7,018 nucleotides of DNA, taken from the NCBI GenBank assembly GCA_913061385.1, contig CAJXTM010000187.1, positions 1-7,018 on the forward strand. The letters run 5' to 3'. The notes below the pieces were generated by a model. It ran no database searches, had not been told where the DNA came from, and saw only the letters and a program-made list of their open reading frames with translations. Source of the DNA: an uncultured Rhodopirellula sp. GTDB lineage: Bacteria > Planctomycetota > Planctomycetia > Pirellulales > Pirellulaceae. Of the stretch, positions 1 to 7,018 are shown one piece after another. The position numbers were made by a program, and so were the translations under genes. Numbering within the stretch: the stretch's first letter is position 1; every line of letters starts with the position of its first letter.

Positions 1-48
1 TCTACACGTAAGGAGTCGTCGGCAGCGTCAGATGTGTATAAGAGACAG
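1..48 (+). other. Nextera i5 adapter (library artefact)
   Basis: This is not genomic DNA. Positions 1-7 (TCTACAC) are the end of the Illumina P5 arm. Positions 8-15 (GTAAGGAG) match the Nextera index known as N505/S505. Positions 16-29 (TCGTCGGCAGCGTC) are the read-1 arm, and 30-48 (AGATGTGTATAAGAGACAG) is the 19-bp Tn5 mosaic end. Biological sequence starts at 49. The 19-bp mosaic end could be mistaken for a transposon terminus, but the index and primer arm outside it show it is a library oligonucleotide. The match is from memory of the published oligonucleotides and is exact over the whole stretch. Confidence 0.98.
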
Positions 49-49
49 A

Positions 50-100
50 CTGTATCGTGTGCTGCTTGATCAGCCAATTCAGCAGGAAGCCAACGAATGA
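50..100 (+). CDS. C-terminal tail of unidentified upstream gene (partial)
   Basis: A frame open from the first genomic bases reads LYRVLLDQPIQQEANE and stops at TGA 98-100. That TGA overlaps the ATG (97-99) of the next gene as ATGA, the usual geometry of translationally coupled genes in one operon. The overlap is the main reason to think this is a real gene end. Sixteen residues are too few to name a family. The rest of the gene lies outside the fragment because the adapter cuts it at position 48. It could also be chance open frame, since 16 codons without a stop is unremarkable. Confidence 0.35.
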   Translation: MYRVLLDQPIQQEANE

Positions 101-1101
101 ATCATCGAGGCAATTCGTTGAAAAATTGGCTGTTCGGGTATGTTGATGCATGGGACCGATTCTGGTTCACCCCGCGCCAGCCCTGTACGCTTTCAGTTCT
201 TCGAATCATCACGGGGCTCATGCTGCTGTACTCCCATCTGGTGTTGGCGACTGACTTAAAGGCATTTGTCGGCGATACGGCTTGGGTAAACAATGAAACC
301 GCCAGGCAATTGCACGACGGTACATTTGGTTTTTCGGACTATGGCAGAACTTACCTTTGGTTCATCAGTAGCCCAAACCTGCTCTGGGCACACCATCTTT
401 TCACGATGGTTATAACCGCATGTTTTGCTTTCGGATTTCTGACCAGGATTACATCACCCTTGGCGTGGTTTCTGCAACTCATGTATTTGCATCGTCTGAC
501 GGGGGCACTGTTTGGTTTTGACCAGATCGTGACTTACGTAGCGATGTATCTGATGCTCGCTCCAACCGGAAGTTGCTACAGCGTGGATGCACGAATAAGG
601 ACTCGTTTTGCTTCAGCCAATCGAGGACGTTTTTGGCATTGGCTATTTCCAGAAGCCAAGCCGACGGTCCTTGCGAATATTGCCACTCGCCTGATGCAAC
701 TGCACCTTTGCGTGATTTACCTATTTGGTGGAATCAGTAAAGCTCGCGGACAGACTTGGTGGGACGGAACCGCGGTTTGGTACTCCGTCAGTAACTACGA
801 GTACCAGTCGTTGGATATGACATGGCTTTCCGGGTATCCGCGTTTGTTCAGCATGATGACGCATGTCACGCTTTTTTGGGAACTGTTTTATTGTGCTCTC
901 ATTTGGCCGCGATTGACGCGTCCGTTTGTGCTCGCAATCGCTGTTTTCATGCATGCTGGAATCGCGTTTGGGCTTGGGATGATAACTTTCGGCACCATGA
1001 TGATTGCCGCGAACATGATTTTCATCAGTCCCGAATGGGTACAGCACGGATTGGAAAGTCTGCGACGGTCGTCTGGTTCGTCACGACAATCTGAAGTCTG
1101 A
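97..1101 (+). CDS. HTTM-domain integral membrane protein
   Basis: The product is a 334-residue polytopic inner-membrane protein of the HTTM group (the membrane domain shared with vitamin K-dependent gamma-carboxylase). Hydrophobic spans are visible near residues 31-52, 97-116, 120-155 (probably two), 196-213, 251-270 and 275-310. The segment at about 196-230 (aromatic/hydrophobic run, then YLFGGISKARGQTWWDGTA) resembles the best-conserved HTTM core, with its Lys and W-x-G-x-A. The C-terminal tail from about 311 is polar and Ser/Arg-rich. No carboxylase-type C-terminal extension follows, so vitamin K-dependent carboxylation should not be assumed; the function of most bacterial HTTM proteins is unknown. 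The start at ATG 97 has an AGGAAG site at 84-89, seven bases upstream, and overlaps the stop of the preceding frame. The next gene converges on it. Confidence 0.85.
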   Translation: MNHRGNSLKNWLFGYVDAWDRFWFTPRQPCTLSVLRIITGLMLLYSHLVLATDLKAFVGDTAWVNNETARQLHDGTFGFSDYGRTYLWFISSPNLLWAHHLFTMVITACFAFGFLTRITSPLAWFLQLMYLHRLTGALFGFDQIVTYVAMYLMLAPTGSCYSVDARIRTRFASANRGRFWHWLFPEAKPTVLANIATRLMQLHLCVIYLFGGISKARGQTWWDGTAVWYSVSNYEYQSLDMTWLSGYPRLFSMMTHVTLFWELFYCALIWPRLTRPFVLAIAVFMHAGIAFGLGMITFGTMMIAANMIFISPEWVQHGLESLRRSSGSSRQSEV

Positions 1102-1236
1102 TTTCGACACAGCAAGAGTCGCTGCGAGCAACCATCTAAGAACAGCGTATTACCCTGCAGAATTTCATTTTTCCTGATTGTCGGGCATCCATTCAGCATC
1201 GATCGACTGGCCTTCATTTAGGCTTAGCTACTGCCT

Positions 1237-1269
1237 CCACCAAGTGATTTGTCGCTTATCACTCGGTGG
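1237..1269. terminator. Candidate bidirectional terminator hairpin
   Basis: The arms CCACC-A-AGTGAT (1237-1248) and ATCACT-C-GGTGG (1258-1269) pair over 11 of 12 positions, with one A/C mismatch and a 9-base loop. It lies in the gap between the convergent HTTM gene and gpmI, where a shared terminator is expected. Neither side has a clear T-run, so it does not meet the classical intrinsic-terminator pattern. It may instead stabilise 3' ends or be incidental. Confidence 0.4.
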
Positions 1270-1319
1270 GTACAGGTCACATCGTCTGACCTCAACGCCA
1301 TTGTTTCGCAGTAACGCGA

Positions 1320-1340
1320 ATGAGTGAGTTCACCACTCGT
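1320..1340 (-). terminator. Weak hairpin just downstream of gpmI stop
   Basis: ATGAGTG (1320-1326) can pair with CACTCGT (1334-1340) through seven positions, including one G-T wobble, around a 7-base loop. It begins 35 bases after the gpmI stop codon on the minus strand. There is no T-tract, so it is only a possible 3'-end structure. Confidence 0.2.
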
Positions 1341-1374
1341 AAGGTCGCTGTCGATTTCGAACTGTCGTGTCGGA

Positions 1375-2979
1375 TTACAGCTTTAGAAGGGGTTCGCCGG
1401 TCATTTGTTCTGGAATGGGCAGGCCCAGCAATTCAAGGATCGTGGGCGCGATGTCGGCAAGTCGGCCACCGCTACGCAGTTTTTGGCCGTTTAGATTTGG
1501 TTCGACCACGATCAATGGTACATCAAAGGTCGTGTGCGCCGTGTGTGGGCCACCGCTTTTTGGATCGATCATTTGTTCGCAATTGCCATGGTCTGCAGTC
1601 ACAACCAGAGAACCACCCTTGGCCAGCGTGGCTTCCACAATTTTTCCTACGCAAGCATCAACTTTTTCGACTGCCTTAACTGCAGCTTCGACTACTCCCG
1701 TGTGTCCAACCATGTCGCCGTTGGCGAAGTTCACGATAATCAATGCAGCTTGTTCAGAGTCGATTTCGGCAAGCACTTTTGCCGTGACCTCTTCCGCTGA
1801 CATCTCTGGTTTTTGGTCATACGTTGAAACATCTCGTGGTGAGGCGGCCATTCCTCGATCTTCTTCTGAAAACGGATCATCTCGGTAGTCATTGAAAAAG
1901 AACGTAACGTGGGGATATTTCTCTGTTTCAGCACAGCGGAACTGATGCAGTTCTAGACTGCTGATGTATTCGCCGAGGATATTCGGCATCTTGGCCGGTT
2001 TTTCAAAGATCACGTGAACAGGTAATCCGGTTTCGTAACCCGTCATTGTGGCAAAGTAGAGGTTTTGAATCTGCTCGCCACGGTCAAAACCGCCACCGTC
2101 GATATTTTTCCATTGGTCGTCAGGGAAGACGAACGCTTTTGTGATTTCACGGGTCCTGTCCCCTCGGTAGTTCAGGAAGATGATAGCATCGCCATCTTTG
2201 ACAAGGGTCGGGCCGTTGGGTCCAAGAATGGTCGTCGCTGAGATGAATTCATCACCCTTGCGATTGGCGTCGGTTGGATGGTCGTAATACGACTGAATCG
2301 CCTCGCCTGCTGTTTCGGCAGTTCTTTCGGCGCCGCGGGTCATCATTTCGTACGCGGTCTCGACCCGTTCCCAACGAAGATCACGGTCCATGGCGTAGAA
2401 ACGTCCCACCACGCTGGCGATATGACCGACACCAGCCTCGCCCATCTTATTCTCCAGTTGACTAACAAAGGCTTTGCCACCCGTTGGTGATGTGTCACGA
2501 CCGTCGGTAATGGCGTGAACCGCAAACTTATCACCTGCGAGCCCAGAATGTTTGACGAGATCAACAACAGCAAATGCATGCTCCAAATCACTGTGGACTC
2601 GTCCATCGGACATCAAACCCAGCAAGTGCAGCGTGCCACCGCTGGCCTTTACATGGTCAATCGATTCCTGGAAGACCGTTTTGCTGAAAAAAGATTCGTC
2701 GCGAATTGCTCGAGTGATTCGCATCACTTCTTGGTCGACGATTCTGCCGGCACCAATATTTTGATGTCCCACTTCACTGTTGCCCATCACGCCAGCAGGT
2801 AGCCCCACGTCTTCACCTGAGGTGTGAATCAATGCATTGGGGTAATCCTGCATCAGGGCGTCGGAGACTGGTGTATCCGCCAGGTGGACGGCATTCGCAT
2901 GATTCCACTCTGGGTTAGGATTCTCGCCCCAGCCGTCACGGACAATCAGAACAACAGGTTTTCGTCGGACTTGCGTCAA
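1375..2979 (-). CDS. gpmI: 2,3-bisphosphoglycerate-independent phosphoglycerate mutase
   Basis: This cytoplasmic glycolytic and gluconeogenic enzyme interconverts 3-phosphoglycerate and 2-phosphoglycerate using two metal ions and a phosphoserine intermediate. The 534 residues are slightly longer than the usual 510 or so. Motifs in order: metal-binding DGWG (D15); nucleophile Ser68 in GNSEVGH; substrate-binding HAITDGRDTSP (156-165) and GRFYAMDRD (192-200); NYRGDR (270-275); K354 in EKYPHVTFFFND; metal ligands D422 and H426 in NGDMVGH; D463 and H464 in TADHGN; H482 in PHTAH. All expected alkaline-phosphatase-superfamily ligands are present, so it should be active. The start is TTG at 2979: no in-frame ATG precedes it, the next internal Met (43) would delete the first metal motif, and a weak AAAGAGA site (2988-2994) lies eight bases upstream. 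It is divergent from pgi, another glycolytic gene. Confidence 0.97.
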   Translation of the reverse strand: MTQVRRKPVVLIVRDGWGENPNPEWNHANAVHLADTPVSDALMQDYPNALIHTSGEDVGLPAGVMGNSEVGHQNIGAGRIVDQEVMRITRAIRDESFFSKTVFQESIDHVKASGGTLHLLGLMSDGRVHSDLEHAFAVVDLVKHSGLAGDKFAVHAITDGRDTSPTGGKAFVSQLENKMGEAGVGHIASVVGRFYAMDRDLRWERVETAYEMMTRGAERTAETAGEAIQSYYDHPTDANRKGDEFISATTILGPNGPTLVKDGDAIIFLNYRGDRTREITKAFVFPDDQWKNIDGGGFDRGEQIQNLYFATMTGYETGLPVHVIFEKPAKMPNILGEYISSLELHQFRCAETEKYPHVTFFFNDYRDDPFSEEDRGMAASPRDVSTYDQKPEMSAEEVTAKVLAEIDSEQAALIIVNFANGDMVGHTGVVEAAVKAVEKVDACVGKIVEATLAKGGSLVVTADHGNCEQMIDPKSGGPHTAHTTFDVPLIVVEPNLNGQKLRSGGRLADIAPTILELLGLPIPEQMTGEPLLKL

Positions 2980-3053
2980 TGGACCGTTCTCTTTTGATGG
3001 TTGTAAAAAAACAGGATTTACAGGCGGTTTTTGGACTAGCAGTCATGCGGCGG

Positions 3054-3063
3054 GCCGATCGGC
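3054..3063. repeat. 10-bp perfect palindrome GCCGATCGGC
   Basis: A perfect inverted repeat lies within the divergent promoter region, 75 bases upstream of the gpmI start. Placement suits an operator, but palindromes of this size occur by chance, so no regulator is named. Confidence 0.2.
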
Positions 3064-3145
3064 GGTCAGCTTTATAACTCCTCTCTACGCTCAATTTAGC
3101 CGACAGAGACGGTCCTCGGAACGCCCAAGGCATTCGTTCCAATCA

Positions 3146-3157
3146 GGCTTGCAAGCC
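3146..3157. repeat. 12-bp perfect palindrome GGCTTGCAAGCC
   Basis: A perfect inverted repeat lies 75 bases upstream of the pgi start codon and 167 bases upstream of the gpmI start. It could be an operator for a dimeric regulator acting on the divergent pair. One such site is expected by chance every few kilobases, so the support is its position only. Confidence 0.25.
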
Positions 3158-3231
3158 CGCTTCGAGAGTGTGGACCCATCCGCTACGCTAGCTTCTCTAC
3201 ATCGACCAGTCCCTTAAGGAATTATCTGATC

Positions 3232-4650
3232 ATGCATCTTCTGCGTTTTGATCCTTCCGGCAGTATTAATTCCGATTTTGGTGTCACTGAGGAGCAAGTT
3301 TCAGGTTTGTCTGAAACCTTGGGGGAACTCCGAACTGAGATTGTTGAAACTGATCCAAAACAGTACATGTCCGGTCAGGTGCCGGAGCATAAAAAGCCTC
3401 TTGACGCTCGGTTCTTTTGGCTTCCTGAAGAGCAGTTGGCTGCCTATGAGGCAGACCGTGGTGCGTCAGAACTGGGGCGGATTTTTCAGGTTGCCAATGG
3501 TATCCACAACGAGATTGATGCAGTTGCTGTCCTAGGCATTGGTGGGTCCTATATGGGTGCGAGGGCAATGATGGAAGCCTGCTGTGATCCTTATCACAAC
3601 GAACTGACTCGAGGAGACCGAGGTAGCAAGCCGCGAATGTATTTCGAGGGCAATAATGTTGACAACGACGCAAGCAACGCTTTGCTGCATCGAATTAAGG
3701 CAGGTGGATATGGAACGACTGAGGCAGAGAAGCGTTTCGCAATTGTCGTTATCAGCAAGAGTGGTGGAACGATGGAGACAGCTGTTGCCTTTCGGCAGTT
3801 TCTCTCGTCTCTCGAAGCATCGTTGGGAGAACAGGCGTCTAGGAAACTGGGGCGTCTTGTGATCCCTGTTACCGGGGCGTCCGGGAAGCTTCATGATCTG
3901 GCTTCTGTGATTGGTTGTGAGCAGGTGTTCAGTGTTCCCGAGGGAGTGGGGGGGCGATTCAGTATTCTGTCTCCAGTTGGTCTGCTGCCTGCTGCCATGT
4001 TGGGGTTGGATTGCATGAAATTGCTCGAGGGTGCTGTTGCCATGAACGAGCACTTCAAAAATGCTTCTTATGATGAAAATGTGGTGTTGCAGTATGTGGC
4101 GGTAAACCACTTACTTGCCAAGCATCGAGGCAAGTCAATTCGTGTGATGAGCGTTTGGAGTAAGGCCCTCGAAGCTGTCGGATTGTGGCACGACCAGTTG
4201 CTTGCAGAGTCCAATGGAAAACAGGGGTTGGGCGTCACTCCGTTGACCACCGTGAATACCCGAGATTTGCATAGTCGCCATCAGCAGCATCAGCAGGGAG
4301 GGAACGATAAAGTGTTTAACAATATCATTGTCGAAAAATATCGAACTGATCCTTTGCAAGTGGGGCATAGTGCAAGAAATCAGGACTCACTGAATGACCT
4401 GGCAGAACGCACGCTGCCAGAGATTATGTCGGCGGCCATCAAGGGTACCAATGATGCACTCCATGGGGATGGTCGCCCGACAACCGACATTTTGCTTCCC
4501 GGAATTGATACGCATGTTCTGGGACAGCTATTTCAAATGCTTATGATTGCAACAGTGGTCGAGGGCAGGCTTTTGGGGATCAATCCGTACGGGCAACCTG
4601 GCGTTGAGCAGTATAAACAGAATATGAATAAGAACCTCGGACGCGGCTGA
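3232..4650 (+). CDS. pgi: Glucose-6-phosphate isomerase
   Basis: This cytoplasmic enzyme interconverts glucose 6-phosphate and fructose 6-phosphate. The 472 residues place it with the shorter bacterial isomerases rather than the roughly 550-residue E. coli/eukaryote type. Visible landmarks: sugar-isomerase loop GIGGSYMGA (102-110); phosphate-binding ISKSGGTMET (174-183); family signature GGRFSILSPVG (240-250), containing the conserved Arg242; E326 in WHDQLLAES; H347 in TRDLHS; and Lys462 in the C-terminal signature NPYGQPGVEQYK. The E-H-K spacing (21 and 115 residues) resembles that remembered for the Bacillus enzyme. The second signature has Gly455 where Asp is commonest (YGQPGVE for FDQPGVE), probably tolerated. 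The ATG at 3232 follows AAGGA at 3216-3220. It is divergent from gpmI and followed by a hairpin-containing gap before trpA. Confidence 0.97.
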   Translation: MHLLRFDPSGSINSDFGVTEEQVSGLSETLGELRTEIVETDPKQYMSGQVPEHKKPLDARFFWLPEEQLAAYEADRGASELGRIFQVANGIHNEIDAVAVLGIGGSYMGARAMMEACCDPYHNELTRGDRGSKPRMYFEGNNVDNDASNALLHRIKAGGYGTTEAEKRFAIVVISKSGGTMETAVAFRQFLSSLEASLGEQASRKLGRLVIPVTGASGKLHDLASVIGCEQVFSVPEGVGGRFSILSPVGLLPAAMLGLDCMKLLEGAVAMNEHFKNASYDENVVLQYVAVNHLLAKHRGKSIRVMSVWSKALEAVGLWHDQLLAESNGKQGLGVTPLTTVNTRDLHSRHQQHQQGGNDKVFNNIIVEKYRTDPLQVGHSARNQDSLNDLAERTLPEIMSAAIKGTNDALHGDGRPTTDILLPGIDTHVLGQLFQMLMIATVVEGRLLGINPYGQPGVEQYKQNMNKNLGRG

Positions 4651-4657
4651 ATCCGGA

Positions 4658-4729
4658 ATGATGGCTGGTTGGATTGGATACCTTGCGTTACTCGCCCAAT
4701 GTAAGAATTTGGCGAGTCTTCGGGCCTAA
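4658..4729 (+). CDS. Possible 23-codon small ORF after pgi
   Basis: An ATG-ATG pair at 4658-4663 opens a frame that ends at TAA 4727-4729. The predicted peptide begins MMAGWIGYLALLAQCK, with a hydrophobic first half, one Trp and a Lys/Arg-containing tail. The hairpin at 4690-4717 lies inside it. A CGGA sits just upstream, too close to be a good ribosome-binding site. It could be imagined as a trp leader peptide upstream of trpA, but one Trp codon is too few for the known type of attenuator. Probably chance. Confidence 0.12.
   Translation: MMAGWIGYLALLAQCKNLASLRA
4690..4717 (+). terminator. Candidate pgi 3'-end hairpin
   Basis: ACTCGCC-C-AA (4690-4699) pairs with TT-T-GGCGAGT (4708-4717): seven continuous base pairs, one mismatch, then two more, around the 8-base loop TGTAAGAA. 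It starts 40 bases after the pgi stop. No U-run follows (next bases CTTCGGGCC), so it is either a non-canonical terminator, a mRNA-stabilising structure, or part of an untranslated leader of trpA. Confidence 0.45.
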
Positions 4730-4844
4730 TCGAACTCAGGTTGTGTTGCTCAGGCTTGAGAAAACTGTTGCGAACAGGACCTGCATTGGCATGCCGCAGA
4801 GGTTTCATCTGGCTGACGCCGGGTTACTTTCTGTCCACGTTGGC

Positions 4845-4850
4845 TACAAT
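4845..4850 (+). promoter_or_regulatory. Possible -10 box upstream of trpA
   Basis: TACAAT matches five of six positions of the sigma-70 -10 consensus and lies 57 bases before the trpA start, within a GGCTACAAT context. No good -35 hexamer is found 16-18 bases upstream (closest sequences are GGTTAC/TTACTT), so this is a weak prediction of a trpA promoter separate from pgi. Confidence 0.25.
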
Positions 4851-4907
4851 AGACCATTACAGCCCCTAACTGCCCTGCTCTGCCCCAAATTTGGAAACGA
4901 TTCATTC

Positions 4908-5723
4908 ATGTCAGCAGTTGACCAGCTTTTTGCCGATTTGCGATCAGAAGGCCGTAAGGCGCTGATGCCGTTCTTCACTGCTGGTGATCCAGATGTGTCC
5001 ACCACCGCACGCGTCATTCAGGCCGCCCAGTCAGCTGGCGCGAGCTTGTGCGAGGTTGGTGTTCCGTACAGTGATCCCATTGCTGATGGACCTGTCATTC
5101 AGGCTTCTTATCAGCGTGCGCTCGATCGTGGTTTTCGACTTCAGCAGATGATGGATCTGGCCGAAAATTTAAAGCCAGATGTTACTATGCCGCTAGTAAC
5201 GATGGTCAGCTACGCAATCATTTATCGGGTTGGCTTGGAAAAGTATGTCCAACAGGCAAAGGCGGCGGGCTATGCCGGTGCGATCGTGCCTGACCTGCTA
5301 GTTGAGGAGGCGGGTGAACTATCGAAAATTTGTGCTGCTGAGGACTTCAGCCTAGTGCAGCTAGTCACGCCAACAACGCCTCGAGAACGCCAAGTCAGGA
5401 TTGCCCAGTCTTCTTCCGGATTTCTCTATTATGTGTCTGTCACAGGAATTACCGGGGAGAGAGTCGCTCTGCCTGAAGATCTGGTTGATAATGTGAAATG
5501 GCTACGTGGGCAAACAGAGTTGCCCATTTGCATCGGATTTGGAATCAGTGGACCAGAGACAGCAGCACAGTTGGCGCCGGTCGCCGACGGATTGATCGTA
5601 GGTTCGGCTGTGGTCAGGCGAGTTCACGATGCGGGTGATTCTGATACAGCAGTGACACAGGTTACGGCATTTGTGAAAGCGTTGCGGCATGCGATCGACA
5701 ACGCTTCGGCAGAAATTGAATGA
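4908..5723 (+). CDS. trpA: Tryptophan synthase alpha chain
   Basis: The product cleaves indole-3-glycerol phosphate to indole and glyceraldehyde 3-phosphate; indole normally passes through a tunnel to the TrpB subunit, which joins it to serine. The 271-residue protein is a single TIM barrel of normal length (E. coli 268). The catalytic pair sits at the same numbering as in E. coli, Glu49 in CEVGVPYSDP and Asp60 in IADGP, which strongly supports ATG 4908 as the start rather than an upstream in-frame codon. Other landmarks are MPFFTAGDPD (20-29), VPDLLVEEA, the loop segment YYVSVTGITGER, and phosphate-binding GFGIS and GSAVV near the C-terminus. A GGAAA lies about 12 bases upstream, a loosely spaced ribosome-binding site. 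trpB, the usual upstream neighbour, is absent: pgi lies there instead. The redox gene pair follows after only 41 bases, so co-transcription is possible without functional connection. Confidence 0.97.
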   Translation: MSAVDQLFADLRSEGRKALMPFFTAGDPDVSTTARVIQAAQSAGASLCEVGVPYSDPIADGPVIQASYQRALDRGFRLQQMMDLAENLKPDVTMPLVTMVSYAIIYRVGLEKYVQQAKAAGYAGAIVPDLLVEEAGELSKICAAEDFSLVQLVTPTTPRERQVRIAQSSSGFLYYVSVTGITGERVALPEDLVDNVKWLRGQTELPICIGFGISGPETAAQLAPVADGLIVGSAVVRRVHDAGDSDTAVTQVTAFVKALRHAIDNASAEIE

Positions 5724-5764
5724 CAGATTATTTCACGGCAGAGAAGAATAGACGATAGAATTCT

Positions 5765-6577
5765 ATGGATCAAAAACCTCGACGAGACTTCCTGAAAAAG
5801 GCAGCCCTTGCGCTGCCGATTGTTGCAGTAACCGATTCTGCTGATGCGAATGCAGCAGATGATGCGACGGAAGGTAGTGCAGAAAGTACGCCGTCATGGC
5901 AGGGTCGTATGACCGCTCCTGATGACGGCAAGCGTTATGGCTGGTTCGTCGACACAAGGCGATGCTTCGGGTGTCATGCTTGCGAGGTCAGTTGTAAGTC
6001 GGAAAATGACGTGCCCCTTGGGAATTACATTCGTCAGACCACTTACCTTGATAAAGGTAAGTACCCCGAGGTAGCAAGACTTTTTCTACCCATGTCGTGT
6101 CAACACTGTGAGGACGCGCCGTGTATCAAAGCTTGCCCATGCGGTGCTTTGCATAAGGAATCAGGCGGGACTGTGGCGATTGATTACGACGTCTGTTGTG
6201 GTCATGGATCGTGTGTCGATGCTTGTCCCTATGGCGCGATCTATATGGATCCAGTTGCCAGCCAAGCCGTCAAATGCCACAACTGCTATCACCGGGTGGA
6301 ATCCGGGATGGAGCCGGCTTGTGTGCCGACGTGCCCTGCCGAAGCGTTGCACTTCGGGGATTTAAATGACCCGCAATCAAGGGTCAGTCAGGCGATGCAG
6401 CGAGCCGAGGATGAGGACGTTGAATTGGTTCAGATACGGGTCGAAAAAGAGACAAAGCCACGGATGTGGTTTGCCGGGCCTGCGGCTGCCGAGATCGAAA
6501 AGAAATTGCCACGCGAGGGGGAGTCCTTCAGCCCTGAGGCCTATGATATTTACAACTGGAAGGAGGGTGAGAAATGA
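5765..6577 (+). CDS. Tat-exported four-cluster Fe-S electron-transfer subunit of a molybdopterin oxidoreductase
   Basis: The 270-residue protein is of the DmsB/PsrB/TtrB/NrfC type and should relay electrons between a Mo-bisMGD subunit and a membrane partner. A Tat signal is clear: PRRDFLKK (5-12), a hydrophobic stretch (13-22), then a probable cleavage after ANA (30). Four cysteine groups follow: C67-x2-C70-x2-C73-x3-C77; C112-x2-C115-x4-C120-x3-C124 (plus C126); C144-x2-H147-x2-C150-x3-C154; C171-x2-C174-x11-C186-x3-C190. The last is followed by the family-typical ALHFGDLNDP. In the third group the usual second Cys is His147, with an extra Cys145 next to C144. By analogy with NarH (Trp at this position) this may give a [3Fe-4S] cluster. 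The start is fixed by the Tat motif although the ribosome-binding site is weak (GAGAAG 18 bases upstream). Its stop overlaps the next ATG. The substrate and exact subfamily cannot be told. Confidence 0.9.
   Translation: MDQKPRRDFLKKAALALPIVAVTDSADANAADDATEGSAESTPSWQGRMTAPDDGKRYGWFVDTRRCFGCHACEVSCKSENDVPLGNYIRQTTYLDKGKYPEVARLFLPMSCQHCEDAPCIKACPCGALHKESGGTVAIDYDVCCGHGSCVDACPYGAIYMDPVASQAVKCHNCYHRVESGMEPACVPTCPAEALHFGDLNDPQSRVSQAMQRAEDEDVELVQIRVEKETKPRMWFAGPAAAEIEKKLPREGESFSPEAYDIYNWKEGEK
6561..6566 (+). promoter_or_regulatory. Strong Shine-Dalgarno site for the molybdopterin gene
   Basis: AGGAGG lies inside the end of the Fe-S gene, seven bases before ATG 6574. It is the best ribosome-binding site in the window and fixes the start of the next gene, together with the ATGA overlap. 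Confidence 0.85.
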
Positions 6578-6971
6578 GTCAAGATCACGACCCTCAATCG
6601 CACCGCAGTCAGCGTCGACGTTTTTTGAATCTTGGACTGGCAACGATCACAAGTGGTGTTCTTGCTATCGGTACTAAGAGGCTCCAATCGGCTCAAGTAG
6701 AGGTTCTTTCGCCAGGCGAGAAAAAGGCGACAACTGGTGGTGCGGCAGTTGACCAGTCAGTTCCAAAAATTGACATGGAAAAATGGCGAAAACTGAAATC
6801 TGAGCCTTATGAGTTCGGCACCTTTGGCGAGATGCCAGGTGTTTGCAATCTTCCCGGGCCGCTGGCCAAAAGAAACTGGCCAGATCGCGAAAAGTACAAA
6901 GGGGCGGTGAAAATCCCCGGGATGTGCCAACTGTGCAGCACTGTTTGTGGCATGATTGGCTACGTCAAAGA
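6574..6971 (+). CDS. Molybdopterin oxidoreductase catalytic subunit, N-terminal fragment
   Basis: Only 132 complete codons are genomic; the fragment ends at 6971 in mid-codon (GA-) where the adapter begins. A Tat signal is present: S-x-RR-x-FL pattern at 12-18 (SQRRRFL), then a hydrophobic stretch about 19-32. After a polar linker, residues 118-125 (CQLCSTVC) give the C-x2-C-x3-C of the N-terminal [4Fe-4S] motif of DMSO reductase-family enzymes; the fourth Cys and the Mo-binding domains are lost. The first Cys sits late (118), leaving roughly 85 residues between signal and cluster, including a segment EPYEFGTFGEMPGVCNLPGP that I do not recognise. Position directly after, and overlapping, the Fe-S subunit gene supports a two-subunit periplasmic complex, perhaps with a membrane anchor further downstream. 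Polysulfide, thiosulfate, tetrathionate or other substrates are all open. Residues encoded after 6971 are adapter. Confidence 0.85.
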
Positions 6972-7018
6972 CTGTCTCTTATACACATCTGACGCTGCCG
7001 ACGACTCCTTACGTGTAG
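6972..7018 (-). other. Nextera i5 adapter, reverse complement (library artefact)
   Basis: This is the exact reverse complement of positions 2-48: mosaic end at 6972-6990 (CTGTCTCTTATACACATCT), primer arm at 6991-7004, index complement CTCCTTAC at 7005-7012 and the P5 remnant at 7013-7018. The window therefore has a perfect 47-bp inverted terminal repeat that is wholly synthetic. The same index arm at both ends suggests a single-adapter amplification such as a synthetic long-read workflow (inference). Position 6971 is the last genomic base. The reading frame of the last gene happens to stay open through the adapter, which would add false residues to that protein. Confidence 0.98.

Follow-up and report, generated by a model that had tools for sequence, protein, structure and literature searches.

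Adapter arms at the ends of the contig

Contig CAJXTM010000187.1 (C187), assigned to an uncultured Rhodopirellula sp., was analysed over its whole length of 7,018 nt, which we call the window; it is one of the 1,197 contigs of a genome assembly of 5.70 Mb with an estimated completeness of 77.7%. The main open frames in the window are ordinary, while its two inverted ends are untrimmed Nextera adapter, an artefact and not a real feature of the locus. Positions 1–48 are identical to the last 48 nt, the 3′ end, of the indexed Nextera P5-i5 oligo, and positions 6972–7018 are the exact reverse complement of the last 47 nt of that oligo; both copies face inward. The exact inverted repeat measures 47 bp (2–48 versus 6972–7018), stops at the first insert base and ranks first among the 12 inverted pairs found by a repeat search of the window. 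An earlier note on this DNA, made from the sequence alone, had given the same coordinates, segment names and perfect 47-bp repeat, and the exact match with the oligo bears it out. The segments are as follows:

1..7, + strand: P5 flow-cell oligo remnant, TCTACAC, an exact suffix of the P5-i5 oligo
8..15, + strand: i5 sample index, GTAAGGAG, common to 80/80 sampled i5 tails of sufficient length
16..29, + strand: Nextera read-1 (i5-side) primer arm, TCGTCGGCAGCGTC, exact oligo match
30..48, + strand: left Tn5 mosaic end, 19 bp, AGATGTGTATAAGAGACAG, exact oligo match; its reverse complement is printed in a passage of PMC3046479
49..6971, no strand: genomic part of the contig, 6,923 bases, remaining once both exact adapter ends are removed
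6972..6990, − strand: right Tn5 mosaic end, 19 bp, exact oligo match
6991..7004, − strand: Nextera read-1 primer arm, exact oligo match
7005..7012, − strand: i5 sample index, exact oligo match, uniform in the sampled i5 tails
7013..7018, − strand: P5 remnant, exact oligo match

The same ends throughout the genome and in other public records

Across the whole genome, the mosaic end occurs 1,372 times with at most one mismatch (670 and 702 matches by strand). The chance expectation at this stringency is about 0.002, assuming equal base frequencies, and the reversed control pattern yields no match at all; chance is therefore excluded. The i5 arm with the window's index has 472 matches in the genome, and the i7 arm has 659. 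For a closer view of individual ends, 140 whole contigs were taken together with the window (141 in all), from which seven contigs reading entirely as N were dropped, leaving 134 readable contigs with 268 ends. This sample is not random: 20 contigs were chosen first, 10 of them adjoining the window in length rank, and the others were taken at roughly every seventh rank down to number 861 out of 1,197, so that it leans to longer contigs.

An exact Nextera end of either arm type, short index-less tails included, is present on 217 of the 268 sampled ends (103 i5 and 114 i7); the others comprise one variant with one extra base, five partial mosaic ends and 45 bare ends. Counted by contig, 132 of the 134 carry adapter at one or both ends. 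The mosaic end was never found internally within the 134 readable contigs, nor was an outward-facing copy found near a contig end in the 141 fetched contigs. Each arm has a single index among the tails long enough to include one, the i7 index CAGCCTCG being found in 92/92, as the i5 index is in all of its own. The right end of L167 has a 54-nt i5 tail with an extra C between the read-1 arm and the mosaic end, which is likely an error of oligo synthesis or of sequencing.

The insert bases that adjoin the adapter have a preference of their own. Over the first nine positions, it is symmetric under reverse complementation (G1/C9, T2/A8 and Y4/R6; r = 0.83 for 217 ends), and no base bias is seen at two control positions, 101 and 109 bases inside the insert. 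The inner preference falls at positions 2/8, and not at 3/7 as in the Tn5 target consensus. A G/C pair at the edge of the 9-bp core is described as typical of Tn5 in a passage of PMC8557372. The adapter was placed by Tn5, very likely in the tube.

The window's ends resemble Illumina Nextera i5/i7 read-through in their exact sequence, in the order of the segments, in having one index per arm and in the Tn5-like bias. There is no sequence difference from such read-through; what stands out is its extent in one deposited genome (217/268 sampled ends). As foreign laboratory sequence in a deposited genome, the tails also resemble the adapter and vector contamination of public assemblies for which NCBI's FCS tools screen. 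Contaminated submissions are tabulated in a part of PMC10898089, where adaptors are among the common contaminants; the counts given there are per submission, whereas in this single genome an end is affected in 132 of the 134 readable sampled contigs.

The 48 bases recur in at least 82 stretches of public genome contigs, and 85/85 matches lie within 60 nt of a contig end. The carriers include Myxococcaceae, flavobacteria, Clostridia, Verrucomicrobia, Ktedonobacter, Streptomyces and others, many of them from a few sequencing projects, and named public metagenome-assembled genomes (MAGs) are among them. Identical ends on unrelated contigs, the check proposed in the earlier note, are thus found within the genome and in unrelated organisms as well, and its reading as untrimmed Nextera adapter and not a transposon stands. 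Two drafts of named Streptomyces NRRL isolates (L037 and L050) have the same indexed adapter at contig ends; their tails measure 58 nt, with a single-base difference in the P5 portion, and 60 nt, and exceed those of the other contigs in that scan. The viral contig IMGVR_UViG_3300033553_000162 from IMG/VR (L091, about 7983–8080) carries, near its end, the full P5 oligo with the same index and, on the strand read, a run of T outside P5.

Within the window's phylum, the i5 arm occurs in 3/392 genomes, the window's own included. In another genome of the same phylum (L243 1501–1533; G238:C213:3254–3286), the arm is found within the stretch examined and not at its end, and the bases upstream of it differ, which likely reflects a chimeric join at the adapter. 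No match was found in 20,395 records of complete E. coli genomes. Among 50,697 phage records, 26 match, seven of them over at least 80% of the query, and there is no exact full copy among the best 20 of the 26; of these 20 listed matches (H9–H28), several are at record ends and some inside annotated genes.

Plasmids match in 8 of 72,556 records, one of which, titled complete, holds all 48 bases internally. This record (NZ_MH643786.1, about 164112–164166; L251 1494–1548) has an internal Nextera i5 adapter with the window's index and a P5 remnant. The copy is single, unpaired and preceded by P5 sequence, and nine other plasmids among the matches listed have the locus at 95.6% identity over about 652 bases (5,000 records covered). 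On these grounds, the plasmid copy is probably contamination, and the record probably needs correcting. The earlier note had named the full 48 bases inside a closed genome as the finding that would speak against an adapter. Taken literally, such a copy exists once; given its probable origin, we read it as a sign that this criterion was too weak, rather than that the artefact reading is wrong. Since adapter bases occur in MAGs, in drafts, in a “complete” plasmid and, as parts or near-copies, in phage records, a closed record is no proof of a biological end.

A gene cut at the right end and continued in another contig

The genomic part of the window carries five genes and the start of a sixth, onto which the adapter is translated:

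97..1101, + strand: HTTM-domain/SdpB-family-like membrane protein, 334 aa (PF05090 27.9 bits, cut-off 27.7; TIGR04033 below cut-off)
1375..2979, − strand: 2,3-bisphosphoglycerate-independent phosphoglycerate mutase (TIGR01307 612.7 bits, cut-off 330.65)
3232..4650, + strand: glucose-6-phosphate isomerase (PF00342 89 bits, cut-off 22)
4908..5723, + strand: tryptophan synthase alpha chain, trpA (TIGR00262 245.7 bits, cut-off 102.35)
5765..6577, + strand: 4Fe-4S electron-transfer subunit of a molybdopterin oxidoreductase-type complex (PF13247)
6574..6971, + strand: catalytic subunit of a molybdopterin oxidoreductase, of which the contig end leaves only the start; 73% identity with a relative that has a 951-aa open frame; continued in contig C740
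6972..7017, + strand: adapter translated as a false C-terminus, CLLYTSDAADDSLRV, which ends the window's last open frame; the same peptide occurs in three database proteins (P0002–P0004)

The best NCBIfam matches of the 5765..6577 product are of the TtrB, NrfC and DmsB types; these lie below their cut-offs, as do all of the best 25 of 31 matches. The cut catalytic-subunit piece, taken alone, had no family match in Pfam and NCBIfam scans; the nearest database relative found for it is a partial protein labelled Planctomycetaceae, so that a planctomycete is the likely source. Elsewhere in the window, a promoter and terminator scan gave no excess over shuffles, and neither a tRNA nor an Rfam family at gathering score was found.

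The last 39 bp of the genomic part (6933–6971, + strand) are repeated exactly at bases 45–83 of C740, directly inside that contig's own i7 adapter of 44 nt. From there, the 512 codons of C740 that were analysed are without a stop and in frame with the last gene of the window, and they specify molybdopterin oxidoreductase and Fe4S4 domains. A PDB search with this piece returned 56 distinct sequences, the best being thiosulfate reductase, which confirms the enzyme family only. Nineteen relatives were searched besides the window's own genome; five matched, and no frame was extracted from the fifth (L218). The C740 part is 95–97% identical over all 512 residues to three relatives with open frames of 951 to 962 aa, and 97% identical over 153 residues to a fourth, the open frame of which has only 390 aa.

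The window's part is 67–73% identical to these same four relatives. Amongst themselves, the relatives are 67–79% identical in the N-terminal part (six pairs); after it, the three pairs without the fourth relative reach 94–96%, and the three pairs with it 63–65% over a shorter aligned stretch. None of the five relatives' loci has the exact mosaic end. Since C740 overlaps the window, continues its last gene in frame and matches the relatives, the catalytic-subunit gene is, on this sequence evidence, whole in the genome and split by the assembly. When the trimmed ends of the 134 readable contigs and the start of C740 were compared, no exact overlap of 14–400 bp was found besides that of the window with C740; the comparison covered this sample, a minority of the genome's contigs.

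A search with the false tail returned four proteins: one true relative and, at E-values of 1.7 to 6.5, P0002, P0003 and P0004. The latter three contain the adapter peptide followed by further translated P5 sequence (CLLYTSDAADDSLRVDLGGRRIIKK); in P0002, it is joined to an aspartoacylase-family domain. Literature searches on the adapter peptide, on adapter sequence in MAGs and on Nextera read-through found nothing.

Pairing of the ends and the probable origin of the tails

Both ends of the window are i5, as they would be if the record were a single library molecule in its entirety, amplified with an i5 adapter at each end. Were the contigs single molecules with the same adapter twice, pairs of the same arm should dominate. 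The 86 sampled contigs tagged at both ends show no such excess: 20 are i5/i5, 45 are i5/i7 and 21 are i7/i7, where independent ends would give 21.0, 43.0 and 22.0 (chi-square p = 0.67). Library molecules that carry one adapter twice are, moreover, suppressed in the Nextera polymerase chain reaction (PCR). In a passage of PMC3046479, the step is named suppression PCR. Adapter ends are also borne by a contig of 25 kb, and the genome continues beyond the window in C740 with an overlap of 39 bp. We consider a single molecule very improbable, and the earlier note's suggestion of a single, complete amplified fragment flanked by identical adapters finds no support in the pairing, in the 25-kb contig or in C740. 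The i5/i5 pair of the window is one outcome of independent ends, and its two ends likely belong to different library molecules.

A real Tn5/IS50-type composite or mini-transposon would likewise have a 19-bp Tn5-type terminus facing inward at each end, here around a cargo of 6.9 kb. Unlike in such an element, the window's termini consist of the synthetic mosaic sequence, to which an index and P5 are attached, with nothing outside the ends. The best matches in the window to the wild-type Tn5 outside and inside ends have three and four mismatches, respectively, and fall on the adapter itself. Neither IS50 nor any other transposase was found among the six main open frames scanned against Pfam and NCBIfam. 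Most of the sampled contigs are capped by the same ends, the exact mosaic end is absent from the five relatives' loci and the gene runs on in C740; we have rejected the composite transposon, to which we give practically no credence. An in vivo mini-Tn5 or an engineered insertion library in a living strain, elements that also use mosaic ends, was rejected after test and is just as negligible, given 1,372 copies in a single genome with none inside the 134 readable sampled contigs, the sequencing index and flow-cell oligo outside the mosaic end, and no marker gene among the six frames scanned.

The window's ends are, with a probability that we put at roughly 0.97, untrimmed i5 adapters; reads from short tagmented inserts likely ran into them, and a de Bruijn-graph assembler likely retained them. 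The odds are about even for the details, namely that the tails originate from read-through and that the length of a tail is k less the number of insert bases held in common with another adapter path, k being near 55. Where an insert is shorter than the read, reads would run into the adapter, which would be left untrimmed, and each insert would thereby gain a path into one common adapter sequence. Paths in the graph would stay separate while the k-mer holds enough insert bases to be unique, and would otherwise merge; a contig would stop at the merge point and retain k − m adapter bases, where m counts the insert bases in common with another path.

If paths merge in this way, tail lengths should form a narrow peak that does not differ between the arms. 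The tails of 42–51 nt (168/217) have a mean of 46.9 nt; the peaks are at 47 nt (i5) and 48 nt (i7), and the lengths cluster at 45–50 nt in both arms although the arm sequences differ. A simulation fits best with k = 54–57 and, if k = 55, about 30,000 inserts; the default k of metaSPAdes is 55. In a pairwise test of tail against insert, based on 226 tagged ends (the 217 and nine from other fetched loci of the same genome), i5 tail length falls with the number of shared insert bases (rho −0.30, p = 0.007, 78 ends). That C187 and C740 remained unjoined would also be explained, because their 39-bp overlap is shorter than such a k.

Several observations weigh against this reading, though none against the identity of the adapter. 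Of the 268 sampled ends, 45 are without adapter, and the 1,372 matches correspond to 57% of the 2,394 contig ends of the genome (contigs reading as N counted as misses), against 81% in the readable sample. The neighbour of the left end was not found in a 202-base search, which very short overlaps would escape, and the base bias extends outside the 9-bp core, with G at 11 and C at 14. As regards the graph details, k = 54, 55, 56 and 57 fit about equally well, with up to 400,000 inserts modelled for the larger k; the standard deviation of the tails is 1.71 as compared to 1.2 in the model, and the fitted range leaves out 49 of the 217 tails, which measure less than 42 nt. The correlation for i7 is not clear (rho −0.11, p = 0.26, 99 ends), and the ceiling of 54 on the sum of tail length and shared insert bases is not unusual under permutation (0.10 and 0.56).

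No biology is gained from the inverted ends; their effects come from the error. A repeat finder reads the adapters as a perfect 47-bp inverted terminal repeat, gene callers would create false protein ends such as CLLYTSDAADDSLRV, and contigs that adjoin in the genome, such as C187 and C740, remain separate, with a gene split between them. The chances are evenly balanced that the tails are a fossil record of the assembly, revealing its k (about 55) and the number of distinct read-through inserts in the whole sequenced sample (about 30,000 if k is 55). If this is true, contigs that can be rejoined are recognisable by facing adapter ends whose overlap falls short of k.

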